DNA of 34,197 nucleotides from a virus. Positions within the stretch are counted from its first letter, which is position 1; every line of letters begins with the position of its first letter. Where the stretch lies: positions 1 through 34,197 of IMG/VR virus record IMGVR_UViG_3300028590_000063; one strand, 5' to 3'. Below, piece by piece: positions 4,541 through 29,494 of this stretch. Position numbers and translations under genes: made by a program. The notes under the pieces are model-generated. The model was not told the origin of the DNA. It made no database searches and saw only the letters and a list, made by a program, of their open reading frames with translations.

Positions 4541-4548
4541 GATAAATA
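4541..4548 (+). promoter_or_regulatory. GATAAATA motif, site 1
   Basis: An exact GATAAATA just after the gene ending at 4510, with an imperfect hairpin on its left (4517-4540) and a perfect one on its right (4550-4575). No convincing gene starts 29-35 nt downstream, so this copy may be a relic or may drive a non-coding RNA. Confidence 0.4.
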
Positions 4549-4549
4549 A

Positions 4550-4575
4550 AAGTGCCGGTGTTGTGACCGGCACTT
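4550..4575 (+). other. Perfect 10-bp hairpin
   Basis: AAGTGCCGGT and ACCGGCACTT pair perfectly around a 6-nt loop. No T-run follows, so it is not a canonical terminator. It begins 2 nt after GATAAATA site 1. Confidence 0.6.
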
Positions 4576-4623
4576 GATTGATTCAAGTAGCTCCTAGATA
4601 GTTAAATTTCTAAAAACGCCATT

Positions 4624-4654
4624 AGCCCCGGGCCTCAAAACTCGGGGCTTTTTT
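4624..4654 (+). terminator. Rho-independent terminator
   Basis: AGCCCCG (4624-4630) pairs with CGGGGCT (4643-4649) and is followed by TTTTTT. It ends the unit containing the gene at 4106-4510. Confidence 0.8.
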
Positions 4655-4691
4655 GTGCGCGCGGATTTTGGCCGGATTTTGCGGCGCAGAT

Positions 4692-4699
4692 GATAAATA
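4692..4699 (+). promoter_or_regulatory. GATAAATA motif, site 2
   Basis: An exact GATAAATA placed 29 nt before the ATG of a 32-codon frame at 4721 and just after the terminator at 4624-4654. Flanking GCGG and CCGC give only a weak stem. Confidence 0.5.
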
Positions 4700-4720
4700 C
4701 TTTTGACCGCTGTAAGTGCG

Positions 4721-4819
4721 ATGAGCGCAATGCCCATCCCAAGCCTGCAACGTAGCATCAACCCAATCCTCATTGACCAGTTGATGGCTTACAGCTTCGT
4801 CACTTCATTGGTCATATGA
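4721..4819 (+). CDS. Possible 32-residue microprotein
   Basis: The frame begins MSAMPIPSLQRS and ends in a hydrophobic stretch rich in Ile, Leu and Val. It has no clear ribosome binding site, but its ATG lies 29 nt after GATAAATA site 2, the spacing seen for the better-supported genes of this phage. That spacing is the main reason for listing it. It may be a small membrane peptide or may not be translated. Confidence 0.3.
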   Translation: MSAMPIPSLQRSINPILIDQLMAYSFVTSLVI

Positions 4820-5265
4820 GGGCTAACACACCCCTGAATCGTGTCTGAATGAAGCTACAGAGAAGTAGCCGCTCATCAAGAAGCTGCAAAGCTTTCATCC
4901 CGTGAGCCAACGCGGGGCATAACGCAAACACTCACCTAGAGTGAAGGGCCGTGAATCACGGCTTTTGAGGACGACTAGATCTATATCTCACTTATGCGTT
5001 AGAGAAGCAGTTGATGAACTGCATGCAAGAAAAAATGTGTTGGGGGTATGTAAAAGTAAGGTATTGGCCCCCAAGCTACGCAGCGAGTGATTGAAGACGA
5101 GCTGCACACGTAGTGTCCGCACCAGCGTCTATTCAAGTCCTGTTTAGATGCGCGGCCCATCCAAGGACGGCTTCCAAGTCATGTTGCGCCAGGAGTAGAT
5201 ATAAGCAAACCACGCTCCGAGATAGTTCTGTTTCAATCTCATCAGACCACACTGTCGTCGTGAGC

Positions 5266-5316
5266 AAGGGTATCGTGAATCAAGCAATTTTTTGTTTGTG
5301 GTTCCACGATACCCTT
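5266..5316. repeat. Perfect 12-bp inverted repeat with 27-nt spacer
   Basis: AAGGGTATCGTG (5266-5277) and CACGATACCCTT (5305-5316) are exact inverted copies; the spacer contains a T6 run. It could fold as a long RNA hairpin or serve as a pair of protein-binding half sites. No gene is convincingly attached. Confidence 0.6.
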
Positions 5317-5559
5317 TCTATCTCCCTCCTGTCAGCCATAAAACATTCAAGACAATCTGTTCTCTACATGTGAACAGCAAAATCAAAGACGAAGTCGATC
5401 ACATAGCGAATGAGTGAGCGGAGCATGCGAAGCGAAGGGAATGAGCGTGTGTGTATGTGGCAGAGCGAAGCGATGACGCATAGCTAAGGGTGCCGCAACA
5501 CAAATGGACAGCCACGACTTGAGCACTCCATTTGAGCCGGATTCTCCAGTCAAAGAGAT

Positions 5560-5593
5560 AAGTAGTTAGTCACGATAAATTGACTAACCACTT
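5560..5593 (+). promoter_or_regulatory. GATAAAT motif, site 3, inside a 13-bp inverted repeat
   Basis: Arms AAGTAGTTAGTCA (5560-5572) and TGACTAACCACTT (5581-5593) pair at 12 of 13 positions and leave the 8-nt loop CGATAAAT. The motif (GATAAATT from 5574) lies 34 nt before ATG 5608. The ribosome binding site CAGGAG begins directly after the right arm. Confidence 0.65.
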
Positions 5594-5607
5594 CAGGAGA
5601 CATAAAT

Positions 5608-6030
5608 ATGGCGACAACAACAGAACTGTTCGACTGGCAGCTACAAGTGCTTCAGCCAAAACAGCTACCCAGCTTGACCGACAAAGACCAACTCACCCCC
5701 ATCACTTTTACCCTGTACCCCATCGAGGTCCTGACAGCAGCACAGCAGGCACTTGGGTCCAAAACACTCACGCCCTACGCAGTTGAACTCTACGAGTTCG
5801 CCGTGCAATGCAAAGACAAGGGCAGTCTCATCAAAGCGTCACAGCTCTCAGGCGTCCTCTACACGCAAGCCAAGCTAGACAAATGGCTTGCATCGGTGAG
5901 CCACAAGACACTACTCAGCACTGGAGTATCAGAAGCAGTGTTCATGGCCTATGCGCAGTTCCACAAAGCACGCGTCGACGAGAGCGAAGCAGTGCTACAG
6001 AAGCTTCGCAAGCTCGCCGGCGTGCAGTAG
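5608..6030 (+). CDS. Hypothetical phage protein, 140 residues
   Basis: The start ATG has AGGAG about 10 nt upstream and lies 34 nt after GATAAAT site 3. The product appears soluble and mainly helical, with no recognised motif. It opens a plus-strand unit of three genes with the NUMOD3-like microprotein and a small membrane peptide. Confidence 0.65.
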   Translation: MATTTELFDWQLQVLQPKQLPSLTDKDQLTPITFTLYPIEVLTAAQQALGSKTLTPYAVELYEFAVQCKDKGSLIKASQLSGVLYTQAKLDKWLASVSHKTLLSTGVSEAVFMAYAQFHKARVDESEAVLQKLRKLAGVQ

Positions 6031-6042
6031 GGAGGACTCGGT

Positions 6043-6219
6043 ATGCAACAAGGAACTCAACACACTGAAGAGACGAAGGCAAAGATGCGTGCCGCACATG
6101 CACAGCGTCGCCCCATGTCCGAAGACACCAAGCGCAGGATCAGTGCCGCGAGGACCGGCACGAAGCACAGTGAAGAAACCAAGCGCAAGATAAGCGCGCG
6201 GTTCAAGGAGTCAACATGA
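6043..6219 (+). CDS. NUMOD3-like repeat microprotein, 58 residues
   Basis: The start ATG has GGAGG 7 nt upstream, a strong ribosome binding site. The product consists of three tandem units of the type HTEETKAKMRAAH, SEDTKRRISAAR and HSEETKRKISAR. This is the NUMOD3 pattern, a short DNA-binding helix module normally attached to GIY-YIG or HNH homing endonucleases. No nuclease domain is present here or in an adjoining frame. Its TGA overlaps the ATG of the next gene (ATGA). It may bind DNA alone, act with another protein in trans, or be a remnant of a homing endonuclease. Confidence 0.7.
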   Translation: MQQGTQHTEETKAKMRAAHAQRRPMSEDTKRRISAARTGTKHSEETKRKISARFKEST

Positions 6220-6353
6220 ACCCACTCGTCACAGCCGCAGTCGTGGCCACAGCGGTCTTGGTACTGCCTTCAGTTGTTCTTCAAGTCATCTTGTGCAGCG
6301 CGATGCTTGGTCTACTGGCAGTCGCAAGCGCTAAGCTTTTCGGCAAACTCTGA
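6216..6353 (+). CDS. Small hydrophobic membrane peptide, 45 residues
   Basis: ATG 6216 has AAGGAG 5 nt upstream and overlaps the stop of the NUMOD3-like gene by 4 nt, so translation is probably coupled. Nearly the whole product is hydrophobic, with one or two membrane-spanning segments and a Lys near the end. It converges with the metallopeptidase gene 2 bp away. A holin-like or lysis-peptide role is possible but unproven. Confidence 0.6.
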   Translation: MNPLVTAAVVATAVLVLPSVVLQVILCSAMLGLLAVASAKLFGKL

Positions 6354-6354
6354 G

Positions 6355-6915
6355 TTACACAGGATCACGCGGCTTGCATTTGCTCGCGAGACGCTGAAGC
6401 TTTTCAATCGAATGATCAGGAGCATATTCTCGAAGATGCTCAAGCTGCACCGCACCTAGAGAACCGGCGATTGCACGCAGCGATCGAGCAGCAGCAAACG
6501 CCCCACCTGGCAACTCGCGCACCAGCTGCAGCGCTTCTGCATATGCATCGGGAGCCACCGACATCGGCTCGCACCCGTATTGTCTAAGTGCAAGAAGAGA
6601 AAATTCGACTGCGATCCCTTCTTCTAGAAAGTTTGTGTGATCCGGCATCGGATTGAGCATGTGGACAGTTTCATGAGCCAACTCATACACGGTGCTCGGC
6701 CAATGATCGCGCGCGATATCGCTCAACCTTGCGACAATGCACTTGCCACCTGGAAGAGTCACCATCATAGGTATGTCACCACCAAAGAATGGCTTAAGCA
6801 GCTCTTTGCTCATATCGCGCTCCCCAACCAATTCAGCCAAAAATCCGAGCAATTCGTTTTGCAAATTACAGACTGAATCAAGATCATCAGAGGGGCGCGT
6901 GGTAGGAAGATTCAT
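6355..6915 (-). CDS. Predicted zinc metallopeptidase (HExxH)
   Basis: This 186-residue protein contains YELAHETVHML, where H81-E82-xx-H85 is a zinc-binding HExxH motif, followed 13 residues later by FLEEGIAVEF, whose Glu (E98 or E99) is well placed as a third zinc ligand. That arrangement is typical of gluzincin-type peptidases, which include small ImmA/IrrE-like proteins. It has no signal peptide, so it probably acts in the cytoplasm. It is transcribed alone on the minus strand. No repressor gene sits next to it, so an ImmA-like role in induction is speculation. Confidence 0.65.
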   Translation of the reverse strand: MNLPTTRPSDDLDSVCNLQNELLGFLAELVGERDMSKELLKPFFGGDIPMMVTLPGGKCIVARLSDIARDHWPSTVYELAHETVHMLNPMPDHTNFLEEGIAVEFSLLALRQYGCEPMSVAPDAYAEALQLVRELPGGAFAAARSLRAIAGSLGAVQLEHLREYAPDHSIEKLQRLASKCKPRDPV

Positions 6916-6987
6916 GCGGTTTTGCTCATGTTTTAGCCATAACTGTCGCCGTCAATTGTAGGTCACTGACATCCATCAAGAATCCAC

Positions 6988-7025
6988 CCGATTCCGATAA
7001 ATATCTGCATAACAGTAGGAATCGG
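6988..7025 (+). promoter_or_regulatory. GATAAATA motif, site 4, flanked by an 8-bp inverted repeat
   Basis: CCGATTCC (6988-6995) and GGAATCGG (7018-7025) are exact inverted copies around GATAAATA (6996-7003). The right arm contains part of the ribosome binding site TAGGA of the gene starting at 7027. Distance from motif to ATG is 31 nt. Confidence 0.65.
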
Positions 7026-7026
7026 A

Positions 7027-7464
7027 ATGAGCATTGAAAAGATAGACAACGAGCAGCTACGAGGTTGGGCAGCATTCATCAACAACCTCACACTGAGAAA
7101 AGTTCTTCTCACCTTCGTGTTCGTTGTCGGCCTTGTGTTCGCTTACAGCATGTACGAGAACAAGCACAGCATTCCTGACCTAGTGAAAGAAAACCCAGCA
7201 CTGCTATACGGGTTCTTAGGCGTCGTTGCACTCCTTGCTGTCGGGAACATGATTGGCAACATCCACAACAGAGTGGACGAGAGCAGAGCGGCACTGCTAT
7301 CTGAAGTCCGGGATCGCATGAAAGATCAATCGGACTCACACAAGGACTCAATGAACAGCTTGCAGCTGCAGATTCAAGACCTAAGGCAGCGTGAGAAGGA
7401 CTGCGATGACAGATACAACGCGCTCGTCTTGGACCTTGCTAAACGCGGCGTCTACAAGGACTAG
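7027..7464 (+). CDS. Two-transmembrane coiled-coil protein, function unknown
   Basis: This 145-residue protein has hydrophobic segments near 27-43 and 62-78 and a long charged C-terminal coiled coil (about 85-140). TAGGA lies 7 nt before ATG. The design is an inner-membrane hairpin with a cytoplasmic or periplasmic coiled-coil tail, which would suit a lysis, superinfection-exclusion or membrane-tethering protein. It stands alone after GATAAATA site 4, suggesting expression together with the virion genes. Confidence 0.6.
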   Translation: MSIEKIDNEQLRGWAAFINNLTLRKVLLTFVFVVGLVFAYSMYENKHSIPDLVKENPALLYGFLGVVALLAVGNMIGNIHNRVDESRAALLSEVRDRMKDQSDSHKDSMNSLQLQIQDLRQREKDCDDRYNALVLDLAKRGVYKD

Positions 7465-7746
7465 CCCCCACCCTCAGTCTCCTTTCCCAGCTCTTGGTTG
7501 CAGACTGGCAACCAAGAAATGTACCGCTCGTCGGAAAGTTCAAGTCAGCCAATTTCACGGATTTTCTTGTGGAGTAACGGAAACGCACGCGGAGTCACGC
7601 TGGATCACTTTTATCCACAGGCATGTTCAGTGACACAGCGTTCCAAGCATCGGACAATTTAGCCTGTTAGGACAGATCAGCAGCTCTACATATAAAGCCG
7701 CTAGCTGCACTGAGTACCGAAACAACAAGTCTCACGGACTCGCATC

Positions 7747-7914
7747 ATGGCTACAAACGACAAATCTCAACGCTACGACTGGCACAAAGACCGCCCAGCA
7801 GTGAAACTGACGGCCTTGTTCATCGACCGCGCATTCACTACTGTCGAGCGCGTGCTTGTGGCCATTGCAGCCGCTGGCACTGTTGGGTATGTGGTTGTGA
7901 AGCACATCCTTTGA
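7747..7914 (+). CDS. Small single-span membrane protein with DWHKD motif, 55 residues
   Basis: The frame from ATG 7747 encodes a charged N-terminus containing YDWHKDRPAVKLTA and then one hydrophobic segment (about residues 35-53). The motif aromatic-DW-aromatic-KD-x-P-x-x-KL recurs in the 38-residue product at 9194-9310, so the two look related. The ribosome binding site is weak (CGGA). It converges with the endonuclease VII-like gene. Confidence 0.55.
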   Translation: MATNDKSQRYDWHKDRPAVKLTALFIDRAFTTVERVLVAIAAAGTVGYVVVKHIL

Positions 7915-7918
7915 GCAC

Positions 7919-8305
7919 TCACGGACGGTCCACCTTGTCAGCCCTTTTCTTCCTTGCCCGTTTTGCACGCACCTTGCGCAGTGCAGCCTTCTCGTCTGGA
8001 GTCTTGTGCAACGGGTGCAGCAGGCCCGTTTGATTCACGCTGTGCGTGTCCACGTAGCTTGCGGCAGCACGTAGAAAGTCACCTAGCTCGTCACGCTGCA
8101 CCTGGTGCCTTGCAGCGTTGTTCTCGATGCGGCCCAAGTACGCATTGCACTGACGGTGCAGCACAGCTCGTATAGCACCTGTCTTATGGCAGTGGTCCAG
8201 CACAGGGTCAGCACTGCAATCCTCCTTGCATATAGCGCACAGCATGCCTTGCCGTTGTAGCAAGTCCGCCCTGATAGTCGCAATGTCCTTTGTCCTAATC
8301 CGCAT
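7919..8305 (-). CDS. Endonuclease VII-like (HNH/ββα-metal) nuclease
   Basis: This 128-residue protein contains CAICKEDC (C23, C26), then LDHCHKTG (D37, H38, H40) and LHRQCNAYLG (C53, N54). This is the zinc-ribbon plus DHxH and CN pattern of recombination endonuclease VII family proteins (T4 gp49 type). Such enzymes cut branched DNA such as Holliday junctions before packaging, and related copies act as HNH nucleases. The C-terminus is strongly basic and may bind DNA. It has no clear ribosome binding site. The family call is firm; the substrate is inferred. Confidence 0.8.
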   Translation of the reverse strand: MRIRTKDIATIRADLLQRQGMLCAICKEDCSADPVLDHCHKTGAIRAVLHRQCNAYLGRIENNAARHQVQRDELGDFLRAAASYVDTHSVNQTGLLHPLHKTPDEKAALRKVRAKRARKKRADKVDRP

Positions 8306-8369
8306 CTGATATTTAGCTCAGATACAGCGGGTACTTCTTTCTATTTGACAGCCATTTGGCACCGGCTTC

Positions 8370-8377
8370 GATAAATA
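8370..8377 (+). promoter_or_regulatory. GATAAATA motif, site 5
   Basis: An exact GATAAATA lying 34 nt before ATG 8404. Unlike sites 3 and 4 it has no obvious flanking inverted repeat. Confidence 0.55.
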
Positions 8378-8403
8378 ACTGCATCCATAAGGAGAGCAGA
8401 ACA

Positions 8404-8589
8404 ATGAAAAACGAACCCATTAGGGCCAACTTTGAAAAAGCAGTAGTTGAGCCTATCGAGAACGGCTATCTAGCAACAATCAGCACAGAAGATGAAGACC
8501 GTGTGGCCTTCTTCCGTAGCTTCCCACGCGCCTTGCAGTACCTGAAGACTGCAAACTCTGAACTCGAAGCCAACAGGGCGGAGCAATGA
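8404..8589 (+). CDS. Hypothetical protein, 61 residues
   Basis: ATG 8404 has AAGGAG about 9 nt upstream. The small, acidic, probably soluble product shows no known motif. It opens a two-gene unit behind GATAAATA site 5. Its stop TGA is followed by a run of eight C before the next gene. Confidence 0.6.
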   Translation: MKNEPIRANFEKAVVEPIENGYLATISTEDEDRVAFFRSFPRALQYLKTANSELEANRAEQ

Positions 8590-8598
8590 CCCCCCCCG

Positions 8599-8814
8599 AT
8601 GAGTTCAGAGACTGGTGAACTCATCCGACGGCTTGCTGAGTTGAACTTGCTGTACCTGCGTCTCCCCACGCTCAAGCAAGAGTTCAGCAAGCGCAAAGCA
8701 GATCTGAACGAAGCCGAAGAGAGCATTGCAAAGCTACGCGAAGAGATTCCAGCGGAAGTGCTCAGCAGCTTCGACCAGCTGCGCGTCATCGACAAGCTAA
8801 AGGGCATCGAGTAA
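8599..8814 (+). CDS. Small coiled-coil protein, 71 residues
   Basis: The product is almost entirely charged helix with heptad-like Leu spacing (LNLLYLRLPTLKQEF onward), so it probably forms a coiled coil. No ribosome binding site precedes ATG 8599, because the upstream bases are C8. With one C fewer, an upstream ATG at 8586, overlapping the previous stop, would be in frame and would allow coupled translation. Function unknown. Confidence 0.5.
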   Translation: MSSETGELIRRLAELNLLYLRLPTLKQEFSKRKADLNEAEESIAKLREEIPAEVLSSFDQLRVIDKLKGIE

Positions 8815-9193
8815 CACCCTCGACGACCTCCTGGCTACATCAGGATGATCATGGCCGCTACAACCAGAACCTGCGCGAAGAACATGGTGGACCTCATCTT
8901 CACCAACAACTTCACCGCGACTACACGGAGCAGCTACAAGATCAAGGTCACTCACGCGGTCAGTTCTAGACCCCACCTACGGCTCAAGGGGCGTAGTGCA
9001 CGGTTTCACCATAGAGAACGTGCAGGACAAGGATGGCTAGCACCGGAATTTTTCCGATGCTTCTTTAGACTCACTGTAGTTTTCCCGCTTGTAGCACCTG
9101 ATTTGACAGGGTTATCCACAGACTCCACGCCTGCTTCCGACCCTCCACGTTCTAAGGTGGGTTCACAATTTGGGCATGCGATGGAGAAACCCT
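8815..9193. other. 379-bp stretch without a confident gene
   Basis: All three plus frames contain protein-like patches that break off: one reads on from 8845, and another holds ...HGFTIENVQDKDG before a stop near 9030. No frame keeps a start, a ribosome binding site and plausible composition throughout. It may be a decayed small gene. The segment 9110-9120 (TTATCCACAG) resembles a DnaA-box consensus by itself, which proves little. Confidence 0.4.
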
Positions 9194-9310
9194 ATGCCAA
9201 AGTTCGATTGGTACAAAGACCCGCCAAAGTGGAAGCTTGCGGCGTGGGCAATCATGCTCTTGCCTACGACACTGTTTGCGATAGCAGAAATCTTGAAGGC
9301 CTTGAAGTGA
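9194..9310 (+). CDS. Small single-span membrane protein with DWYKD motif, 38 residues
   Basis: ATG 9194 has GGAG 7 nt upstream. The product starts MPKFDWYKDPPKWKLAA and continues into one hydrophobic segment. It shares the N-terminal motif and architecture of the 55-residue protein at 7747-7914, which suggests two diverged copies of a small phage membrane protein family. It ends 27 bp from a convergent minus-strand gene. Confidence 0.55.
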   Translation: MPKFDWYKDPPKWKLAAWAIMLLPTTLFAIAEILKALK

Positions 9311-9337
9311 TCGATCCCACGTGCGGTACAGGCGGAT

Positions 9338-9757
9338 TCAAGGACCAGCGCTACGCTTCTGAAGTGCAGCCATCTCGACAATGTTCTCAAGCGGGTCGTC
9401 GCCGTCATAGAAGTCGATCGCCTGTTGAGTCCACACGAAGACCCACCAGCACTGCGGACACTCTCGCACGTTCGACTTTGACCCTCCACGTACAAGAACC
9501 TCTGTTCCGTGGATCACCATGCCATGGTCACTGATCACGCTCACACGCGCCTTGATCAACTCAGGCAGCCTATCTAGCTTCCCATCGGTCAACTTCGCTG
9601 TAAGCCACTTCTGATCCCCTCTGCCTCCCTTCACGAGCAGCAGGTTGCCATGGATCTTTTCCTTAGGTCTTGGAAGCTTCACCCCGCCTTCCATGGTGCG
9701 ATAAACCGATGCCATCATGATACTGTACAAGCATACAGCTACTGCCGCGCAAACCAT
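9338..9757 (-). CDS. Hypothetical protein with N-terminal hydrophobic segment, 139 residues
   Basis: The first 17 residues are hydrophobic and could be a signal or anchor sequence. The rest looks soluble, with a CPQC pair near residues 100-103 that could bind metal or form a disulfide. The ribosome binding site is weak and a start at the internal MASVYRT is possible. It stands alone on the minus strand. Not recognised. Confidence 0.45.
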   Translation of the reverse strand: MVCAAVAVCLYSIMMASVYRTMEGGVKLPRPKEKIHGNLLLVKGGRGDQKWLTAKLTDGKLDRLPELIKARVSVISDHGMVIHGTEVLVRGGSKSNVRECPQCWWVFVWTQQAIDFYDGDDPLENIVEMAALQKRSAGP

Positions 9758-9821
9758 GTAGGACGGGCCTCGCAGAAGTGACCGCTCATCGGCTACATGC
9801 TGCGGGACGCGCTGGGATCAC

Positions 9822-9902
9822 GCGAATTTCGTGGAAAGAAAGCAGGTGGGTCGTGGCGGGCGAACTATTTGCGGTCGATTGCCGTTTTTGCACGAAATTC
9901 GC
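9822..9902. repeat. Perfect 12-bp inverted repeat in a divergent promoter region
   Basis: GCGAATTTCGTG (9822-9833) and CACGAAATTCGC (9891-9902) are exact inverted copies with a 57-nt spacer. Each arm is itself nearly palindromic (CGAA-N-TTCG), as expected of a repressor operator. The pair lies between the divergent genes 9338-9757 and 10036-10323. A copy differing by one base (GCGAATTTTGTG) lies at 33964-33975 upstream of the integrase. Confidence 0.55.
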
Positions 9903-10035
9903 ATCAACTGCAAGGCCCCGAAATTTGACGAATGCATAGTCAGAATGGCACAGTAGCTCACCCCGCACGTAAGCCCCTATGCGTATGTCTGATTAGCAGC
10001 TACGCAGAATGGAGCGTGCGCGGACGGAGAAATAA

Positions 10036-10323
10036 ATGAGCTACAACACAAAAATCACTATTCAGTCTTGCCACGAGATTGAAGATCACGAGATCGCAGA
10101 GTCATTAGAACTATTGCAGTGCGGGATGTATGTTGTCCAACAACACGGCTACATCGTGGACGAAGCAGACGGCTGCGGCACTTGCATCTGCGTTGCTTAC
10201 GCAAACTTGCAAGACAAGCTGTCGCTACATGTGACGCAAGCTAGCGTCATTACCGTGGAGCAAGGTACCTTTGAAGCTTTCTGCAACTGCGGCACCGTAG
10301 GGTGCAGCGACAACAACGCGTAG
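10036..10323 (+). CDS. Cysteine-rich hypothetical protein, 95 residues
   Basis: The acidic product carries clusters GCGTCIC (about residues 56-62) and CNCGTVGC (about 83-90), which could form a metal site. GGAG lies about 8 nt before ATG. It is followed by a terminator at 10332-10361 and appears to be a single-gene unit downstream of the inverted repeat at 9822-9902. Not recognised. Confidence 0.55.
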   Translation: MSYNTKITIQSCHEIEDHEIAESLELLQCGMYVVQQHGYIVDEADGCGTCICVAYANLQDKLSLHVTQASVITVEQGTFEAFCNCGTVGCSDNNA

Positions 10324-10331
10324 TCGTAGAA

Positions 10332-10361
10332 AAAGCCCCGGCGTGTAAACGCAGGGGCTTT
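10332..10361 (+). terminator. Terminator-like hairpin after 10036-10323
   Basis: AAAGCCCC (10332-10339) pairs with GGGGCTTT (10354-10361) around a 14-nt loop. The T-run is short on the plus strand, while the A-rich left side would give a T-run on the minus strand, so it may act in both directions between convergent genes. Confidence 0.65.
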
Positions 10362-10391
10362 GCGGCAAGCATTGAACTCAACTCACAAACA

Positions 10392-10661
10392 TCAATACTC
10401 TTGGACAAGCATGATGCAAGTACTGGATCGATCCGCTTCAGTGATGACGTACAAGTGCTCCTTACCCACCTTGTACTTGCTCAGGATTCGATCCCCATAA
10501 GCAACAGCATCCTCATTGGACTTAACGTCATCAGAACTCAAGATTCCATAGTCTCCATACGCATGCTTTGCCAGCAAAGACAGCGGATTCACTTCGGCTA
10601 ACTCGCAAACTCTTATTGCAGCTGGCGTAGCTACAACTTGACCAACTTTAAACAACGGCAT
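10392..10661 (-). CDS. Small conserved protein of plasmid/integrative-element type
   Basis: The 89-residue product has the recurring layout LFKVGQVVATPAA ... YGDYGILSSDDVKSNEDA ... HLYVITEADRSSTCI. I recognise this from a small protein common on plasmids and integrative elements and often mislabelled as a restriction subunit. AGGAAG precedes the ATG. No biochemical role is established to my knowledge. Its presence suggests exchange with plasmids or integrative elements. Confidence 0.6.
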   Translation of the reverse strand: MPLFKVGQVVATPAAIRVCELAEVNPLSLLAKHAYGDYGILSSDDVKSNEDAVAYGDRILSKYKVGKEHLYVITEADRSSTCIMLVQEY

Positions 10662-10780
10662 AGCACTACTTCCTGCGTAATTGAACAGAAAGTAATGCTA
10701 TGGAAATCGCCCGTTTTGGACGACCTGTTTTAAGTCGATAGCAAGAGAGTGCGCATTACACGCACCCCTTGCATCAATGC

Positions 10781-11242
10781 TTACTGCTTGTTCCGGCGAC
10801 GCGTTTCAGCAGCGTCTTGATTGCTTTCGCGGAGCTTTTGCAGCGCATGGTCAGCGTGCCCAGCTGCGATAAGTGTTTTAAGGGCTTCGAGCTTATCGAG
10901 CACAGCAGCTGGTGCGCATGTGATGAACTTGCCGTAGCCGCCGGCAGTCTTTGGCATGCACACGACCCACGCGTTGCCGTACTTAACGCCGATAGAGGTA
11001 CTTTGGTCGTTGACACGCTTGTACAGCAGCTTTGAAGCTGCGACAGCAGGGCCGCCGTTGACAGCAGCGATATTGGCTTCGATGTTTGCGATGCACTTTG
11101 CGCGTGCTTCTTCGAGCGTGTCGCCCTGTGCAGCACGTGCAGCGGTGTTGCGGTCAGTGACGGTGAATTCGCCTGCGCCGAGCAGTGCATTGAATGCGTC
11201 GAGTGCGGAGGTAGCGGCTTGGCTATTGATTGCTTGAGACAT
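10781..11242 (-). CDS. Hypothetical phage protein, 153 residues
   Basis: AAAGGAAA lies about 8 nt before ATG 11242. The Ala-rich N-terminal half is helical and the C-terminal half has the alternating pattern LLYKRVND ... IGVKYGNAWVV followed by a helix and a basic tail. It loosely resembles the protein at 2654-3103. Another long frame on the same strand (10774-11325) is an out-of-phase shadow with poor composition. Function not recognised. Confidence 0.6.
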   Translation of the reverse strand: MSQAINSQAATSALDAFNALLGAGEFTVTDRNTAARAAQGDTLEEARAKCIANIEANIAAVNGGPAVAASKLLYKRVNDQSTSIGVKYGNAWVVCMPKTAGGYGKFITCAPAAVLDKLEALKTLIAAGHADHALQKLRESNQDAAETRRRNKQ

Positions 11243-11358
11243 GTGTGTTTCCTTTCAGTTTGTTTGCACCGCAGAAGCCGAATTGCTTGCTGCGATGGAG
11301 TGAACTTTAGGGACGCACACCGCACCGGGTAAGGGAGAAACTTGCGCTGAAGTCTCTC

Positions 11359-12165
11359 CTACTGCATCTCGAAGTGGTCGATCACAGCGCTCGTGTCAAC
11401 TAGACTCAAGTCAGGGAACCGCCCGTGCATCGCGTTCGCAGAGAGTAGTTTGAAGTCACTCCTGGCTTGGTTGATCAATCGGCGGAAGGTCACGAACTCA
11501 GCTTCGTGCATCGTCCCTTGCTCGTTGAGTTCCTTCCAGACTGCGTTCGGCATGTTCCAGTTGAGCGCGATGAACTCCTGCTTCAAGAACTCAAGCATCA
11601 TCGCCTTCGTTGTATCCCGCAGCTCGAAGTCCTCATCTAGCCCGTGATAGCGATACGAAGTCATCAAAGCTGTCTTGACCTGCTTGTAGCCCACGGCAAC
11701 GACTTTGCCAGCACCTTTACCCGCCGCCTTGCTGTGCAGCTTGTACTTAGGGGCAGCAGCGTATTCATCGACTCCAGCTGCATACGCATCAACTAGGAAC
11801 AGTTCAACGAGCTTGCGTGTGTCCTCATAGGACTCAAGCAGAGGAACAACAACCCGCACATGTCCTGGCTGCACATCACGACTAGACAGTTCCTGAACGT
11901 CTTGAATGAACAAGTGTCTGCGAGGAAGAAACCACTCTCTCCAGCTTTCATGTTGTATGCCGCTATCTGGCCATCCGAACAACGTCCCTAAGTCGTTGTA
12001 AAGATCCGCGACATGCGGGTACTTGCTTTCAAGAAGCTTTGACTGCTTTGTGTTGCCCGTCTCCCTAGCAGTGCAATAAGTGCTGTAGTCGAGATTCTCA
12101 GACAAGCATTGATAGAAGAAACTAACCCACTCTTCATCAAACAAGTTGTCATTCTTTTGTGCCAT
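11359..12165 (-). CDS. Hypothetical protein, 268 residues
   Basis: A well-formed soluble protein with many aromatic residues and no signal peptide, repeat or catalytic motif I can identify. A Gly/Lys-rich segment near 145-155 could be a flexible linker between two domains. It is the largest unassigned gene in the element and sits in the middle part where early or replication genes might be expected. Nothing seen supports calling it a replication protein. Confidence 0.65.
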   Translation of the reverse strand: MAQKNDNLFDEEWVSFFYQCLSENLDYSTYCTARETGNTKQSKLLESKYPHVADLYNDLGTLFGWPDSGIQHESWREWFLPRRHLFIQDVQELSSRDVQPGHVRVVVPLLESYEDTRKLVELFLVDAYAAGVDEYAAAPKYKLHSKAAGKGAGKVVAVGYKQVKTALMTSYRYHGLDEDFELRDTTKAMMLEFLKQEFIALNWNMPNAVWKELNEQGTMHEAEFVTFRRLINQARSDFKLLSANAMHGRFPDLSLVDTSAVIDHFEMQ

Positions 12166-12683
12166 AGCGTGTATGTTGATGAGTCAATGTGTAGAAAGAA
12201 AGGGAAGAAACTGATCAGCGGTGTATCACGGTTTATGAGCTGTGTGCAGTAGGTTTTCAGTCAAAAACGTCGTGAAAGTGCGGGTTTTGAGTGCAAAGAG
12301 CACGGTGATTGCATATGAATACAAGGTGAATGCACGCTGAACAGCATTGAGTGGGGCCACTAGTTCCATTGAATCACCACATCCAACATAGACAATCTCT
12401 ATTGTCACCGACATTCACCATAGACAAATCCTGATAGACCTGCATCACCAACATAGGTCAACCAACACGAATACTCTACAACAGTACTCTGGGTAAAACT
12501 GTGGCCGTTTAGAGCATTGATCTATATAGAGATTTCGCACCCTACCGGATGTTGCGCAACATTTGCCACAGCCGAACGCATGCTGCTGCACAGTCTGCCA
12601 AGGTGAAGCACAGATCGAATCGGCCTGTCAACGGCTAGAAGGCGGTAGGCGCATTCAGATTCAAGGTCTCTCTTTGTATTGCT

Positions 12684-12730
12684 GCGAAGCACTGATTTGA
12701 AAAATGTTGAGCACATGCGAAGCACTGATT
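12684..12730. repeat. 14-bp direct repeat
   Basis: GCGAAGCACTGATT occurs at 12684-12697 and again at 12717-12730, a 33-bp period (about three helical turns). It could be a binding site pair; no associated protein is known. Confidence 0.5.
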
Positions 12731-12848
12731 AAAAAACACATGGTGTAGCAAGTAGGAAGTGAAGCTGAGAATATATATACACGCTCGCTACCGCATCGGT
12801 TTTTAAATCACCCCTGAACTCTGCGCAACGTATCAGCACCACACCACC

Positions 12849-12911
12849 CCGATTCTTATAAATAGTGCGAAGGCACTGTGCCTATAAGAATTCAAACAAT
12901 AAGGGGATCGG
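12849..12911 (+). promoter_or_regulatory. TATAAATA motif, site 6, with two alternative hairpins
   Basis: TATAAATA (12857-12864) is an exact match to the T4 late promoter core and lies 57 nt before ATG 12914. ATTCTTATA (12852-12860) can pair with TATAAGAAT (12883-12891), enclosing AGGCAC-T-GTGCCT. Alternatively CCGAT plus CTTAT (12849-12859) can pair with ATAAG plus ATCGG (12899-12911), which covers the AAGGGG ribosome binding site. The two folds exclude each other. Confidence 0.55.
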
Positions 12912-12913
12912 AT

Positions 12914-13231
12914 ATGTGCGGAGGCGGACCAAAAGGACCATCAAGCGAAGAACTCATTGCTCAAGAACAAGCTGCTCAAGCAAGAGCCAAGGCTGAAATT
13001 GACAAGATGAATGCGGAGCGTGAGCTTGAGAAAGAGGCAGAGAACGCGAAGATGGTTGCTGAGCAAGCAGCCCAGGCGAACACTGATGCGGCAAGACGTG
13101 CGAGCAACAGGACGCTGTTAGCGGGACTGGCGGCGGAGGAAGGGGAAGACGAACTAGAGCTTGAAGACCCTAAGTCCCAGAGCACAGCTAAGCGCAAGCG
13201 CGCAACGCTCATCAGTACCGGCGGCGAATAA
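12914..13231 (+). CDS. Small charged virion-assembly protein upstream of portal (possibly T7 gp7.3-like)
   Basis: ATG 12914 is preceded by AAGGGG. The 105-residue product starts MCGGGPKGPS, then has a long charged helix (about 14-75) and ends in a basic segment followed by LISTGGE. Podovirus genomes often have a small protein in this slot, and in T7 gp7.3 (tail assembly/host range) precedes the portal gene. The resemblance is in position, size and tail end, not a clear match. Its stop is adjacent to the portal ATG. Confidence 0.6.
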   Translation: MCGGGPKGPSSEELIAQEQAAQARAKAEIDKMNAERELEKEAENAKMVAEQAAQANTDAARRASNRTLLAGLAAEEGEDELELEDPKSQSTAKRKRATLISTGGE

Positions 13232-14881: not shown

Positions 14882-14905
14882 CCTCGGATGCGTCGCATCT
14901 CCCGG

Positions 14906-14927
14906 TGATTTCGATAAATAGAAGTCA
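14906..14927 (+). promoter_or_regulatory. GATAAATA motif, site 7, as the exact loop of a hairpin
   Basis: TGATTTC (14906-14912) and GAAGTCA (14921-14927) pair over 7 positions (one G-U) and leave exactly GATAAATA (14913-14920) as the loop. The motif lies 35 nt before ATG 14948. The ribosome binding site AAAGGAG lies just outside the hairpin. Confidence 0.65.
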
Positions 14928-16293: not shown

Positions 16294-16319
16294 AAAGCGC
16301 CTTTTCAGGCGCTTTTTTT
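16294..16319 (+). terminator. Rho-independent terminator before the capsid unit
   Basis: AAAGCGCC (16294-16301) pairs with GGCGCTTT (16308-16315), and T7 (16313-16319) ends the run. A new GATAAATA motif begins 9 nt later, so transcription probably ends and restarts here. Confidence 0.9.
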
Positions 16320-16327: not shown

Positions 16328-16335
16328 GATAAATA
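16328..16335 (+). promoter_or_regulatory. GATAAATA motif, site 8 (capsid unit)
   Basis: An exact GATAAATA directly after the terminator at 16294-16319. The capsid ATG is 147 nt downstream, an exception to the usual 29-35 nt, so the capsid mRNA would have a long leader with the palindrome CTGAAGTTCAG (16340-16350). Only a weak flanking stem (TGCCT/AGGCA) is seen. Confidence 0.6.
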
Positions 16336-16474
16336 TTTTCTGAAGTTCAGGCAGACCCCGGACAAGTCGTCAGACCCCACTCAGTTTGCACCTGATATCA
16401 GGCCCTCCGTTCGAGAGACAAGCACCAAGAAAGGATTTCAAAACAACAAAAAGACCCGGGGAGGGAACAAAAAA

Positions 16475-17352: not shown

Positions 17353-17393
17353 TCCCCCTGGTTCTCGATAAATACAAAAACGAAACAGGAGGG
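17353..17393 (+). promoter_or_regulatory. GATAAATA motif, site 9, with imperfect hairpin over the ribosome binding site
   Basis: GATAAATA at 17367-17374 lies 34 nt before the ATC start at 17401. CCTGGTTCTCG (17357-17367) can pair with CGAAACAGG (17381-17389) with two single-base bulges, and the outer bases 17353-17355 can pair with 17391-17393. The 3' arm contains AGGAGG (17387-17392), the ribosome binding site. Confidence 0.6.
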
Positions 17394-20422: not shown

Positions 20423-20942
20423 TCTCACGCTCTTCCAACCAACAAGCAACTTAGCACTCACGGGACCAAGAAGACTGACGCTTGAGCAGTTCCATGCCCT
20501 TCCAGTTCCCTATGAAGTTTCACGCGCACGGTCATTGATCTACGGGCTTGAAGCTTTCATCAACAGCACGATTGACGAAGGTCGAATCAATGAGCACTCC
20601 ATAACCCCTGTGCACCGCTTCGCCAACGGCGTCTACACGCGCGAGCTGACGATGCCAGCGGGAACAATCATCGTAGGGAAGAGGCACGCACAGGAGCACC
20701 TTGTGACCATGATCAAGGGCTTTTGCACCTGCTACACGGAACGCGGCCAAGAAGACCTGTACGGCTTCAACTCCTTCCACTCTCCTGCCGGAGAAAAGCG
20801 CGTTCTCTTCATCCACGAAGAGACAACATGGATCACAACCCACAGAACTAACGCGACAGACCTCGAAGCAGTCGAGAACGATTTGATATTGAAGGAGCAA
20901 TCCCTGATTCCACATAAATACACAAAACAAATTGTGGAGTAA
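20412..20942 (+). CDS. Cupin-like beta-barrel protein in the tail operon
   Basis: The likely start is ATG 20412 inside the end of the acetyltransferase gene; TTG 20406 is an alternative. The 176-residue product has TRELTMPAGTIIVGKRHAQEHLVTMIKGFCTCY, here split for reading as TRELTMPAGTIIVG then KRHAQEHLVTMIKG. The HxxxH with following strand recalls a cupin metal site. Such proteins often follow an acetyltransferase in podovirus-like prophages, and their role in the virion or host takeover is not known to me. GATAAATA-type site 10 lies within its last codons. Confidence 0.65.
   Translation: MVFDLTLFQPTSNLALTGPRRLTLEQFHALPVPYEVSRARSLIYGLEAFINSTIDEGRINEHSITPVHRFANGVYTRELTMPAGTIIVGKRHAQEHLVTMIKGFCTCYTERGQEDLYGFNSFHSPAGEKRVLFIHEETTWITTHRTNATDLEAVENDLILKEQSLIPHKYTKQIVE
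20907..20940 (+). promoter_or_regulatory. CATAAATA motif, site 10, with 8-bp inverted repeat over the ribosome binding site
   Basis: ATTCCACA (20907-20914) pairs with TGTGGAGT (20933-20940) at all 8 positions (one G-U). The motif CATAAATA (20913-20920) straddles the stem-loop boundary, and the 3' arm contains GGAG, the ribosome binding site of the gene at 20946. Distance from motif to ATG is 33 nt. The site lies inside the coding sequence of the cupin-like gene. Confidence 0.6.
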
Positions 20943-20945
20943 GGG

Positions 20946-21476
20946 ATGACATGGATCGCAACAGGAATAACAGTCGCTGGGACGTTGTATGGAGCAGCCT
21001 CGGCAAATTCTTCTGCTAAGGCAGGCGCTGCGCAGTCACGCGTCTCTGGCTTTGCAGCGCAAAAAGAATCCGCGTTAAACGACGCCACAGCGCAGCAGGA
21101 AGCGCTAGACATAAGGCAAGCCGCGCGCGATCAAGCAGACCAGATCAAGCGTTCCGCCATGCAGCGACGCGGTCAAATTCTCGTCGCTCAGTCTGCCTCC
21201 GGTACGGTCCTTGGGGAAGGGTCTGCACAAGCGGCTATGGATCAACTGGAAACGCTCTCTAGCGCAGACGCACTCGTTGCGCTCTACAGCGGGGTAAACG
21301 CGGCTGCATCAAGACGCCACCAAGGCCGTCTCGGTCTACAAGCAGGGAGCGAAAAAGCCTCGGCATTCGGTATGGAAGCGGCTTCTCAGGAAGCCGCTGG
21401 CCAGCGCGCACTTGTCGGCGGGCTCCTTACAGCTGGTGCTCAAGTTGCTGGCGGCTATGTCAAGAGCAAGAAATAA
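20946..21476 (+). CDS. Internal virion protein, T7 gp14-like
   Basis: The 176-residue product begins with a hydrophobic segment (MTWIATGITVAGTLYGAAS), then is Ala/Gln-rich and helical with the conserved-looking RGQILVAQSASGTVLGEGSA, and ends in a glycine-rich segment. Small internal virion proteins of this type are ejected first and insert in the outer membrane during infection. It opens the ejection-protein unit, followed by the two large internal proteins in T7 order. Confidence 0.82.
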   Translation: MTWIATGITVAGTLYGAASANSSAKAGAAQSRVSGFAAQKESALNDATAQQEALDIRQAARDQADQIKRSAMQRRGQILVAQSASGTVLGEGSAQAAMDQLETLSSADALVALYSGVNAAASRRHQGRLGLQAGSEKASAFGMEAASQEAAGQRALVGGLLTAGAQVAGGYVKSKK

Positions 21477-21488
21477 GAAGGAGCCAAC

Positions 21489-26700: not shown

Positions 26701-27154
26701 CGTTGTCTCCGGGAGACCACATGAGTTTGACACGTACTTCGGCAGCAAGGACGCGATGATCATGACTGCCTGGAAGACGCTTGCCAAGGGCGGATACGTG
26801 GCTGCAGCATCCGACGCTTTCGTCACTGTCTCCAAGCTAGCAGGGCACAAGAGCCTAGGTCCTATCAGCGAAGCGTGGCGCGCAGTTATTCCGGAAGCCA
26901 TTGAAGAAGAGATCTTTCCAAAGTTCGACAGGCTCAGCGCGCCAGAGAAGGCGCTGGGTCCGACCTACGGCTATGCGTCCCAAGCGTTTAAGACCATCAC
27001 AGGGTTTATGGATGGCGACATAAGCGAGAAGGACATTCACGGCGTCCGCACGATGCTGCCAGGTCAAAACATTGGCTGGCTACGCCGTGGCATCGACTAC
27101 GTTGAAGAGTACCTTGGAGGATATGCGGCAGATCGCAAGCTAGTTGATAAATAG
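23750..27154 (+). CDS. Large internal virion/ejection protein, T7 gp16-like
   Basis: The 1134-residue product matches the largest ejection protein of T7-like phages by order and size (T7 gp16 is about 1318). It contains Gly/Ala-rich, membrane-active-looking segments near 115-160 (for example AATIAGAAAKGAAGAVAGTA), then long coiled-coil stretches. I see no lytic transglycosylase signature at the N-terminus, which T7 gp16 has, so peptidoglycan cutting may lie elsewhere or be absent. The start overlaps the previous gene. GATAAATA site 11 overlaps its last codons. Confidence 0.82.
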   Translation: MPILDTTQWGVEATADAPDLNKPTPKTGFVDGVKATWQQESIWVPSKVRSVTEYPNDSSFDFKSYEKKYWPLVAEARNKEHAEDMVAQFEKEQENKNIMDNQSFALGLTTNITVGLTNPLNYIGLGKAATIAGAAAKGAAGAVAGTAATEVVLQGRQVDRSTSDSLYNIAGAAVLGAPLGAGSKLIGNKLGRGSFLSNEVAAAEPNPIAKELAFGGRDSIGAARATERTMTDSKLVSIPFLPKSWAEPVARMALPFARSANQRLQTSTLSSVRNAQNILLRTSLATEENALGVANQVPIEVAVGQRSGTMLTALKETDFNLREAWWKKVEGGTYDKQELLDALRAQDPTLGDNYQLNRTSFDKVLKLYMADDTSVDSRMHEVVERVKRAAEQRAALDADKIDFGLARKEDLIDIATGERLGNPDDSIHVVLLRELREQRAALVAERETLKATRTRKGPLTADEKAARKTLDDKIAGHDEAVRAKSAEVDKLRAEFDSIIPSSKTHKFAYEDGAHYLHRVFDKGRIMGNRKGFIDALVQGWAARNPELNISDMDVVYDLRHAAETATNKLMNEEDLVSLGDLVKNLDLPGKYTKGRTLNVDDRYLTNWTHDDVTATEAFHITQATVDVELARQGVKFNELLNNIKTEKSARVEAINEEHGVGTKKAANLIAKVNSEAEKDIAELEYAMRRLKRQSPLGQTATMRSANSWLDRANRLAGMAQLGSSALPNSLGDVASVARTMGSGPTYRLIAKMFTSEARADMTANAKQLGVLSSLVDKTVREAHLGDQLAESMNPNKGFKSTSLQTLDRGLDHVGNAYAKYSLIDGWSRVGRTVASAASVQHILEAGEKGWGKLSGTTRTDLAKFYIDEHMLNRIAVQAKKHGDDKSGVKFAGVEKWDDAEAARVFQASVYAHTEHALNIPSIGTGSQFMTETFFGRMLTRFKTFNNASHESSLLSSMQNREYSRIITGTLNYAFWGFAGTYAYDVVSGRPHEFDTYFGSKDAMIMTAWKTLAKGGYVAAASDAFVTVSKLAGHKSLGPISEAWRAVIPEAIEEEIFPKFDRLSAPEKALGPTYGYASQAFKTITGFMDGDISEKDIHGVRTMLPGQNIGWLRRGIDYVEEYLGGYAADRKLVDK
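27146..27153 (+). promoter_or_regulatory. GATAAATA motif, site 11 (terminase unit)
   Basis: An exact GATAAATA 31 nt before ATG 27177, overlapping the stop of the ejection gene. Only a 4-bp flanking stem (GTTG/CAAC) is seen; a small separate hairpin AAGGG/CCCTT surrounds the ribosome binding site. Confidence 0.6.
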
Positions 27155-27176
27155 AAGGGACAACAAAAGGCCCTTA

Positions 27177-27884
27177 ATGGATAACCAAGAACAAAAACAA
27201 GAAAAGAGACTTCAAGGAAGACCAACAAAGCCAGATGAAGAACTGGTATGGAGTCGCAAGAGCACACCACCCGTGAGCCACTTGCTCGGCAGGAAGCAGA
27301 TACCAAAGAGATTTCAAGCCATCCTGTGCTTGATGCAGGACGACAGAAGCGCGACAGGCAGGGTGCTCACCCGAGAGCACTTGGATGAATTGCCCTCCAC
27401 GAAGGCGCTCCCAAAGCAGGAGAAGGACTTGCTGTACGGCTACTGGCCGCACTGGCAAACGGACGTAGCTCAGATGACTGCGATTGCTCTTCTACGAAAG
27501 GAGCAAGCAGACCTAGCAGCCAAATCGCAGAAGGTCGCCGAAATCATCGAGCGACGTGAAGGGTTTGACAACCTGTCTCTCCCCGAGCAAATGAAGATCA
27601 CTGCGAAGGTTCTGGACAAGCAGTTCCAGCACGCAGCGCTGATCGCCGCTTCAACCTCCATAGAAGACCTATCTGAAGAGAACGCGAAGCTGGCAAGTGA
27701 CCTCTTCAAGACACGAATCTCGTACCTCAAAGACGTGGCTTGGGTGCGCGAGAAGGTGTGGGATTTGAGCGAGCGACTTGAGCAGAAGGCCCGCGAGGAC
27801 TTTCTGAATGGACAGGACGATGACGAACTGCAAGCAATTTTGCTTTCCGCAGATGAAGTCATCCAGAGAAAGGCTCCTCGATAA
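27177..27884 (+). CDS. Probable small terminase subunit (DNA maturase A-like)
   Basis: I choose ATG 27177 (AAAGG about 6 nt upstream, motif 31 nt upstream) over the upstream in-frame TTG. The 235-residue product is charged and helical, with a basic N-terminus that includes RLQGRPTKPDEELVWSRKS. It directly precedes the large terminase with no gap, the usual place of the small subunit, which recognises phage DNA. It is longer than T7 gp18 (about 89 residues), and I assign it mainly from position. Confidence 0.6.
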   Translation: MDNQEQKQEKRLQGRPTKPDEELVWSRKSTPPVSHLLGRKQIPKRFQAILCLMQDDRSATGRVLTREHLDELPSTKALPKQEKDLLYGYWPHWQTDVAQMTAIALLRKEQADLAAKSQKVAEIIERREGFDNLSLPEQMKITAKVLDKQFQHAALIAASTSIEDLSEENAKLASDLFKTRISYLKDVAWVREKVWDLSERLEQKAREDFLNGQDDDELQAILLSADEVIQRKAPR

Positions 27885-29468
27885 GTGTCTTCTGTAAGCG
27901 GCACCAAGTCGTATCAGAAGCGTGCAGACGGCAATTCACTACCTCCACTAAACGGCAAAGCATCACCCAAGGCAAAGCGCGTCGATTGCACCTTTCACCA
28001 GTTCTTCGGTGTGTGGTGCGTACAGCCATTCAACAACTGGCAGGTACCAGAGTTTCACCACCAGCTGCTGGACTTCCTGTCCGACTACAAGAGCTGGGAG
28101 AACAACACTGGGCTGGTCCAGATTTTCCGCGGTGCCGGCAAGTCCACGATGCTAGGCCTGTGGATCACTTGGATGCTTACGCAAGACCCGACCTTGCGCT
28201 TTCTGATCATTTCGGCGGACCACAGCCTTGCGCAGAAGATCACAACTGACATTCAAAGCATCATCCGAAGCCATCCGCTCGCAAAGCACCTGCACGGAGC
28301 AGAAGGCACATGGCGGACTGACTCCCTCGTCGTCGCAGGAAGCACTGACGGTCGAAACCTAAGCGTCAGCTCTCGAAGCATTGAATCGAACATCACCGGT
28401 GCGCGTGCTGACGTAATCGTCTACGACGACGTTGAAGTCCGAGAGAACAGCGCAACGGACTACAAGCGAGATCAGCTGCGTATCAAGCTTGACGAACCAA
28501 CGCACATCTTGGTTCCTGGCGGCTATGAACTCTTCGTAGGAACGCCGCATAGCTTTGACTCGATCTACACGGAGCTAGAAGGAACCAGCGGCAAGGAAGA
28601 CCCATTCCGCACAGGATGCTCGTCTCTGAAGATTCCTGTGATGACAGAGGTTCAGGGGGAGTTTCCGAACTTCACCGGAACGCCTACATGGCCTGAGCGC
28701 TTCACAGCTGCTGATATCAAGAAGAGGCAAGACGGTTCAAAGACCAAAGGGCATTTCCTATCTCAGTACTTGCTCCAGCCGTACAACCCGAGCGAGACAG
28801 TTCTTGATCCGACGCTGATTTCAACCTACAGCTTTGAGCTGGAGGTTCACACGGCCAATGGCAGCACGCTGGCCCGTCTCAAGGACTACAGGGTTATGGG
28901 AGTCTCTGCGTACTGGGACCCCTCATCGGCAACGCTGCAGACCGATGACAGCGTGCTGGCCATCGTCTTCACAACCGAGGACGGGAACTACTTCATTCAT
29001 CGAGCGATAAAACTGGATGGTGGTGCTGAGGAACAGTGCCACCAAGTCATTCAGACCATGCTTGACAACCACGTCTCCCATGTCTTCATCGAAACCAACG
29101 GCATCGGCAACTTCCTGCCTGCGATCTTCAAGAAGATCGCAGAGGGTAAAGGGGTCACATGCGAAGGCAAGCACACCAGCCAAAACAAGCTGGAGAAGAT
29201 CATGCACGCCTACGAGACCCGACTTTCAGCTGGGTTCCTGCATGCGCACAAGTCTGTAATGGAGACTCCATTTCGAACTCAGCTAAGGGACTTCAACCAT
29301 CGCAGTGTCGGAAGAGGAAAGGACGACTTCATCGACGCTGTAGCAATGGCGATCCTGGCGCAGCCCATTCGCATCAAGGCTGGTCACTACGGCGTGCGAT
29401 CAAGCACGTGGCAAGCGGCAGCAGGCGGTGGCTCCATTGAGTGTGAATCGGATGGAGTTTGCTTCTAG
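27885..29468 (+). CDS. Large terminase subunit (DNA packaging ATPase/nuclease, T7 gp19-like)
   Basis: The start is GTG 27885 immediately after the TAA of the previous gene. The 527-residue product has Walker A FRGAGKST (R82, G85-K86-S87-T88), Walker B VIVYDD (D181-D182), and a C-terminal nuclease part ending in GKDDFIDAVAMAI with paired aspartates. It drives ATP-dependent DNA packaging through the portal and cuts concatemers. The placement near the end of the late block follows the T7 order. Its stop lies in the left arm of the hairpin at site 12. Confidence 0.95.
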   Translation: MSSVSGTKSYQKRADGNSLPPLNGKASPKAKRVDCTFHQFFGVWCVQPFNNWQVPEFHHQLLDFLSDYKSWENNTGLVQIFRGAGKSTMLGLWITWMLTQDPTLRFLIISADHSLAQKITTDIQSIIRSHPLAKHLHGAEGTWRTDSLVVAGSTDGRNLSVSSRSIESNITGARADVIVYDDVEVRENSATDYKRDQLRIKLDEPTHILVPGGYELFVGTPHSFDSIYTELEGTSGKEDPFRTGCSSLKIPVMTEVQGEFPNFTGTPTWPERFTAADIKKRQDGSKTKGHFLSQYLLQPYNPSETVLDPTLISTYSFELEVHTANGSTLARLKDYRVMGVSAYWDPSSATLQTDDSVLAIVFTTEDGNYFIHRAIKLDGGAEEQCHQVIQTMLDNHVSHVFIETNGIGNFLPAIFKKIAEGKGVTCEGKHTSQNKLEKIMHAYETRLSAGFLHAHKSVMETPFRTQLRDFNHRSVGRGKDDFIDAVAMAILAQPIRIKAGHYGVRSSTWQAAAGGGSIECESDGVCF

Positions 29469-29494
29469 AGAGATAAATATTTCTAAAGAGGCAA
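29459..29494 (+). promoter_or_regulatory. GATAAATA motif, site 12, as the exact loop of a long hairpin over the ribosome binding site
   Basis: TTGCTTCT (29459-29466) pairs with AGAGGCAA (29487-29494) and AGAGA (29467-29471) with TTTCT (29480-29484), giving 13 pairs (two G-U) with a 2-nt bulge. The loop is exactly GATAAATA (29472-29479). The 3' arm holds AAAGAGG, the ribosome binding site of the tail fibre gene whose ATG is 29 nt after the motif start. Confidence 0.7.

Follow-up and report, generated by a model that had tools for sequence, protein, structure and literature searches.

A TAAATA-core motif resembling T4-type late promoters at the heads of late transcription units in a clade of temperate podoviruses

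Examination of a 34,197-base IMG/VR virus record, analysed over its whole length and referred to here as the window, reveals a short motif, GATAAATA, that recurs on one strand at a near-constant distance from gene starts, recurs at orthologous places in related genomes, and varies in its first two bases from genome to genome. From these features we infer that the sites are very likely promoters of the late genes, and that they are probably used by host RNA polymerase together with a putative specificity factor that reads a -10 element only.

Exact copies of GATAAATA number nine on the plus strand and zero on the minus strand, compared with a mean of 0.17 and a maximum of 2 in 100 shuffled sequences of the same dinucleotide composition. 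The motif is also the most over-represented 8-mer on the plus strand of the window relative to a Markov expectation (p ~3e-15), and when one mismatch is allowed there are 20 matches in the window versus 7.9 expected. A preliminary description of this DNA had located twelve copies by eye, reported none on the minus strand and proposed counting both strands against shuffled sequence; the counts bear it out, and all twelve of its coordinates are correct. Three of the twelve are one-base variants (5574, 12857 and 20913). A further CATAAATA at 5601, overlapping a start codon, and GGTAAATA at 13691, within the portal gene, are probably incidental. At eight of the twelve sites a gene starts 27-37 nt downstream, as would be true of ~1% of window positions (p = 3.6e-14), which agrees with the earlier proposal that the motif opens late units at a fixed distance. 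The sites and their immediate surroundings are as follows; handles such as G003 denote related contigs that are introduced below.

4541..4548, plus strand: GATAAATA; no protein gene, strong hairpin directly behind; orthologous site in G003.
4549..4656, plus strand: putative small RNA with a 10-bp 5′ hairpin, a linker with GCTCCT and an intrinsic terminator at 4624-4649.
4692..4699, plus strand: GATAAATA directly behind a terminator, then ~870 bp of non-coding DNA (4700-5570), where G003 has a 440-aa ORF.
5574..5581, plus strand: variant GATAAATT within a GTTAGTCA...TGACTAAC palindrome, 34 nt before gene 5608-6030; GGTAAATA in G003.
6996..7003, plus strand: GATAAATA, 31 nt before gene 7027-7464 (weak Rz-like spanin match); CATAAATA in G003.
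8370..8377, plus strand: GATAAATA, 34 nt before gene 8404-8589; GGTAAATA in G003.
12857..12864, plus strand: TATAAATA, 57 nt before gene 12914-13231, the head of the portal operon; equivalent TAAATA in G001, G002, G003, G004, G008 and G009.
14913..14920, plus strand: GATAAATA, 35 nt before gene 14948-15193, after which comes a scaffold-like gene (15190-15948); conserved in relatives.
16294..16315, plus strand: intrinsic terminator immediately preceding the capsid promoter site; found at the corresponding place in G003, G010, G002 and G004.
16328..16335, plus strand: GATAAATA behind that terminator, then a 139-nt leader and the major capsid gene 16475-17290 (site to start, 147 nt).
17367..17374, plus strand: GATAAATA, preceded by a terminator-like stem; the tail tubular A-type gene 17401-17961 follows at 34 nt.
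20913..20920, plus strand: CATAAATA, 33 nt before the internal-virion-type gene 20946-21476; equivalents are GATAAATA in G002, CGTAAATA in G004 and GGTAAATA in G001.
27146..27153, plus strand: GATAAATA, 31 nt before the putative small terminase (TerS) gene 27177-27884; equivalents are CATAAATA in G002 and CGTAAATA in G004.
29472..29479, plus strand: GATAAATA, 29 nt before the tail-fiber-like gene 29501-30346; equivalents are CATAAATA in G002, CGTAAATA in G004 and GATAAATA in G001.

The units headed by these sites include the portal operon, capsid, tail, TerS and fiber genes, and thus the motif is placed at late morphogenesis genes. The previously listed distances to start codons check out, except that the 29 nt assigned to 4692 leads to a 32-codon ORF; no convincing protein gene lies behind either 4541 or 4692. 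The distance of 34 nt to 17401 likewise stands, the codon there being ATC rather than ATG. This ATC start of the tail tubular A-type gene lies behind AGGAGG, with no ATG, GTG or TTG in reach, and is kept in G003 and in two near-identical fragments found among the relatives (L011 and L012), other relatives having ATG, GTG or TTG. Strong terminators had been noted before two sites: that preceding 16328 is indeed a strong intrinsic terminator, and the stem preceding 17367 was read by eye only. The location of sites directly behind terminators, positions that call for a fresh promoter, supports their reading as promoters.

The first site, 4541, is the putative start of a small-RNA unit of ~100 nt. 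The segment 4549-4656 has a fold z of -3.95, and G003 has an equivalent unit. The single-stranded GCUCCU of the predicted RNA could pair with ribosome-binding sites; a search of the window with Rfam returned two tRNAs only. Within the capsid-gene leader (16336-16474), GGACAAG-like and (hairpin)GACAAGCA blocks are conserved in seven relatives, and this leader is possibly a regulatory RNA.

The structural genes of the window, namely those for portal, capsid, tail tubular B-type protein, internal virion proteins and terminase, have matches in T7-like podovirus families. A temperate lifestyle is indicated by the following gene:

32736..33878, minus strand: tyrosine integrase (PHROG integrase, E 1.7e-50).

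Together, the T7-like portal, tail and internal virion proteins and the integrase place the element among temperate podoviruses of the YeP4/HTVC010P structural group. Judged from portal and tail proteins, which are about 28-39% identical, its nearest named relatives are Yersinia YeP4-6, Alcaligenes Piluca, Acinetobacter phages and HTVC010P-type pelagiphages. The window proteins that were scanned included no recognisable RNA polymerase, DNA polymerase, repressor or sigma factor, and window 2000-12800 showed no recognisable replication gene or repressor. G004 has a putative SF3/D5-like primase-helicase (identified by eye) and G003 an AAA ATPase; the left arm is thus swapped between relatives. 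The element lies between two distinct tRNA-Arg(CCT) genes (1961-2035 and 34091-34165). No 15-mer is common to both ends, and the attachment site must therefore be something other than a simple long repeat. At the left end, outside the left tRNA, lies a complete Pycsar-type defence pair (671-1856, minus strand) consisting of a PycC cyclase (E 1.7e-101) and a PycTM effector. A protein encoded at 6355-6915 on the minus strand contains an HExxH motif (ELAHETVHML) with no family match, and may be a metalloprotease. Among 369 genomes searched for the host, all from the class to which an enterobacterial relative belongs, there was no clade member.

Relatives were found through portal, tail, terminase and capsid protein searches of viral contigs. 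The close ones are G001 (L009), G002 (L010), G003 (L022), G004 (L023), G008 (L125), G009 (L127) and G010 (L109), as well as the near-identical fragments L011 and L012, and in all of these the TAAATA core stands on the gene strand at the heads of orthologous units whose flanks have diverged. The orthologous places, shared by these seven contigs and by two held-out ones, are the heads of the portal operon, gp14948, capsid, tail, gp20946, TerS and fiber units, and the capsid site lies behind its terminator in relatives as well. Gene-strand copies of TAAATA exceed expectation in the window (13 versus 1.7), G002 (8 versus 0.8), G003 (11 versus 1.4), G004 (9 versus 1.0), G008 (6 versus 0.5), G009 (8 versus 0.8) and G010 (5 versus 0.5), with p from 3e-8 to 2e-4. 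The AT-richer G001 (8 versus 5.1) is not significantly enriched alone, and its sites are at orthologous places. Over the eight contigs the core occurs 68 times on the gene strand versus 14 on the other. The held-out contigs, L172 and L175, were found later and had no part in defining the motif; they contain seven plus-strand sites versus 0.7 expected, and none on the minus strand. In the scan of related prophages that had been suggested, the core thus recurs at orthologous units.

These data also bear on whether the motif is a product of chance, codon usage or base composition, which we consider next to impossible. Shuffles and the Markov expectation reject it, as do the strand counts of nine and zero where 0.17 were expected, the occupation of different reading frames and of non-coding positions, the conservation of orthologous places despite diverged flanks, and the positive result in the held-out contigs.

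Beyond these genomes, the motif is not enriched in relatives with a capsid identity of 42% or less, among them some at 36%, nor is the gene strand enriched in enterobacterial prophages (~40% portal identity). In YeP4 and the HTVC010P-type group GATAAATA is not strikingly enriched, pelagiphage DNA being too AT-rich to judge. The system is therefore restricted to a narrow clade. CGGTACCG, which is over-represented in the enterobacterial relatives, lies within genes and was set aside. A literature search found no description of the motif in such phages.

The shape of the motif was derived from 60 curated sites, chosen by a TAAATA core at the heads of transcription units. The last A is kept in 59 of the 60; position 2 is A (42) or G (15) in 57, and position 1 is mostly G or C, yielding a clade consensus of [G/C/A][A/G]TAAATA. 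The sites thus carry a T4-type element, that is, an 8-bp TATAAATA-type sequence with a TAAATA core, whose placement is independent of the manner of site selection. The first two bases differ by genome: GA predominates in the window, G003 and G010, CA is found in G002, CG in G004 and partly in G009, and AA in G008. No upstream position exceeds 0.36 bits across the curated sites, confirming the earlier remark that no -35 box is conserved. There are weak A/T steps at -25/-24 and -14/-13 from the first base of the motif, approximately one helical turn apart, which are present in 85/104 cases in the window, G003 and G010 (p 9e-12) and replicated at 61/80 in G004, G008 and G009 (p 2e-8), sites from related genomes being not fully independent. 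The steps are absent from group B (G001 and G002). They would favour a large multi-subunit polymerase or a protein bound upstream.

A different reading holds that the motif is an RNA processing or translation element at mRNA 5′ ends and not a promoter. The fixed distance to the start codon is compatible with this, as are the short stem-loops that stand directly behind many sites (mean z -1.0 over 68 sites) and behind nearly all in G008 and G009. We nevertheless regard such a role as very unlikely, as stem-loops are only occasional in the window, where many sites lack a hairpin, sites occur right behind terminators, 147 nt separate the capsid site from its start codon, and one unit codes for no protein. 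The stem-loops of G008 (L131/L132) and G009 (L133/L134) are strong, end a few bases before the start codon, and belong in part to units without a visible ribosome-binding site; they may protect the mRNA 5′ end or tune translation.

Taking the sites as promoters, a close parallel is with the T4 family. The T4 late promoter is TATAAATA, with a similar consensus in KVP40 and S-PM2 (PMC2988020); the S-PM2 late motif is NATAAATA (PMC2984593), and in Aeh1 (a/g)C replaces TA at -13/-12, giving (a/g)CTAAATA (PMC2988020). The two bases that precede the core thus differ between members of the family, and our clade varies in a manner known within it. The clade further resembles T4-family late promoters in its invariant TAAATA with two variable leading bases, the lack of a -35 element, and the association with late morphogenesis genes; it differs in that the bearer is a temperate podovirus of ~32 kb with T7-like virion genes, and in that the sites are on one strand only. 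The assertion that the motif equals TATAAATA holds at 12857 alone, most other sites fitting NATAAATA. The more general assertion of a T4-style late promoter draws support from the core, the pattern of variation, the late units and the conservation, and falls short as to exact identity with T4 beyond that one site.

The clade also departs from T4 with respect to the gp55/gp33/gp45 system. The T4 gp55 models phrog_234 and phrog_12791 have no match at E<=10 in the window and six relatives, some of whose records may be incomplete, while T4 itself was matched at 2.5e-70. For sigma region 2 (PF04542) nothing exceeded the cut-off in the same seven records, in a search whose control finds bacterial sigma factors; a single sub-threshold match of 20 residues in G009 was the only trace from the sigma and gp55 models. 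Neither the gp45 clamp nor gp33 had a PHROG match among the window proteins covered by a general scan. As searches for the defining sigma came up empty, we do not assign the sites to the gp55 system, and propose only that the motif would work like a T4 late promoter.

Nor does comparison of the genomes single out a factor. No non-structural protein common to all clade members was found, and the left arms, related between the window and G003 and different in G004 and G009, have almost nothing in common, so that no conserved early gene stands out. An 89-aa gene (window 10392-10661), the sole non-structural gene common to four members, is common on plasmids and was discarded as a candidate. The factor could be a strongly diverged phage protein or one supplied by the host or by a co-resident phage; it could also be a conserved late-region protein with a second role.

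The -10 box of sigma70 promoters (TATAAT-type) needs an A at position 2 and a T at position 6. No register of NRTAAATA provides both, and the change from A to G at position 2 in G004 and G009, together with the invariant TAAATA, does not fit such a box. The -10 boxes of RpoH, FliA, RpoS and RpoE also differ from the motif; FliA (GCCGATAA) was dropped since the CA and CG variants occur without GATAA. These observations make it unlikely that a host sigma, or sigma70 with an activator, reads the motif with no factor brought by the phage. This could account for the failure to detect a phage factor or a conserved early gene, and the weak, phased A/T steps could be contacts of an activator, but no TATAAT-like hexamer is available, sigma70-like promoters are not enriched, and the two leading bases change from one genome to the next.

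Plant and yeast organelle promoters (CRTA-type, ATATAAGTA) resemble the motif, which raises the prospect that a single-subunit RNA polymerase of the T7, N4 RNAPII or mitochondrial type, either very divergent or encoded elsewhere, recognises it. N4 RNAPII uses a minimal AT-rich promoter spanning -7 to +2, and its middle promoters are, like our sites, AT-rich, minimal, close to the start site and found in a podovirus (PMC4496689). Behind the second left-arm site of G003, moreover, lies the 440-aa ORF (L104:3187-4506), in which polymerase-like motifs (YDIQSC, HDGW) can be discerned by eye. On the other hand, N4 has gp15/gp16 of the T7 RNA polymerase family, of which none was found here: the T7-type polymerase model (PF00940) has no match in seven records, with the T7 control at 9.9e-110. 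We rejected the G003 ORF as a polymerase, as it matches no relative or family anywhere searched, its single-sequence model is meaningless (pLDDT 33), and the window, non-coding at 4700-5570, has no counterpart. The A/T steps, which extend further upstream than the contacts of T7-type polymerases, would also argue against this type of enzyme, whose involvement we judge quite unlikely. Skadi-1, of the HTVC010P-type group, does not encode an RNA polymerase (PMC10504331).

We therefore return to host RNA polymerase with a -10-only factor, for which phiEco32 offers a precedent. In that podovirus, middle and late promoters (tAATGTAtA) depend on gp36, with transcription starting 6-8 bp downstream, and a phage sigma acts with host RNA polymerase on a single -10-like element with no -35 (PMC8948821). 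The parallel is incomplete in that the motif differs and phiEco32 encodes a recognised sigma, none having been found in this clade. By analogy, ordinary host polymerase would transcribe the early genes of the minus strand and the left arm, and a factor made or supplied during lytic growth, perhaps a very divergent phage protein, would direct the host core polymerase to TAAATA, reading the -10 element alone as T4 gp55 and phiEco32 gp36 do. As in T4 (PMC2988020) and phiEco32 (PMC8948821), opening at TAAATA would take place approximately one helical turn ahead of the start. With the core at the -10 place, and judging from these two phages, transcription is expected to start ~5-8 nt downstream and to leave a 5′ leader of ~15-22 nt. 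The terminators before the capsid and tail genes would separate the units, and each strongly expressed virion gene would thereby receive its own promoter.

Descriptions of T4-type late promoters come from large lytic phages of the T4 family and go hand in hand with gp55 and its partners. Here a T4-type core, with the same tolerance at the leading bases, occurs in a clade of small temperate podoviruses. A TAAATA core in genomes with no detectable gp55 means convergent promoter recognition, an unrecognised factor, or the factor of another phage. A more specific version, in which the core is read by a new, unrelated fold or by the late sigma of a co-infecting T4-like phage, strikes us as rather unlikely; if the wiring to a T4-like late sigma were true, the late genes of the prophage would fire when a T4-like phage arrives. 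The natural variants GA, CA, CG and AA within the clade make the rules of recognition directly testable.
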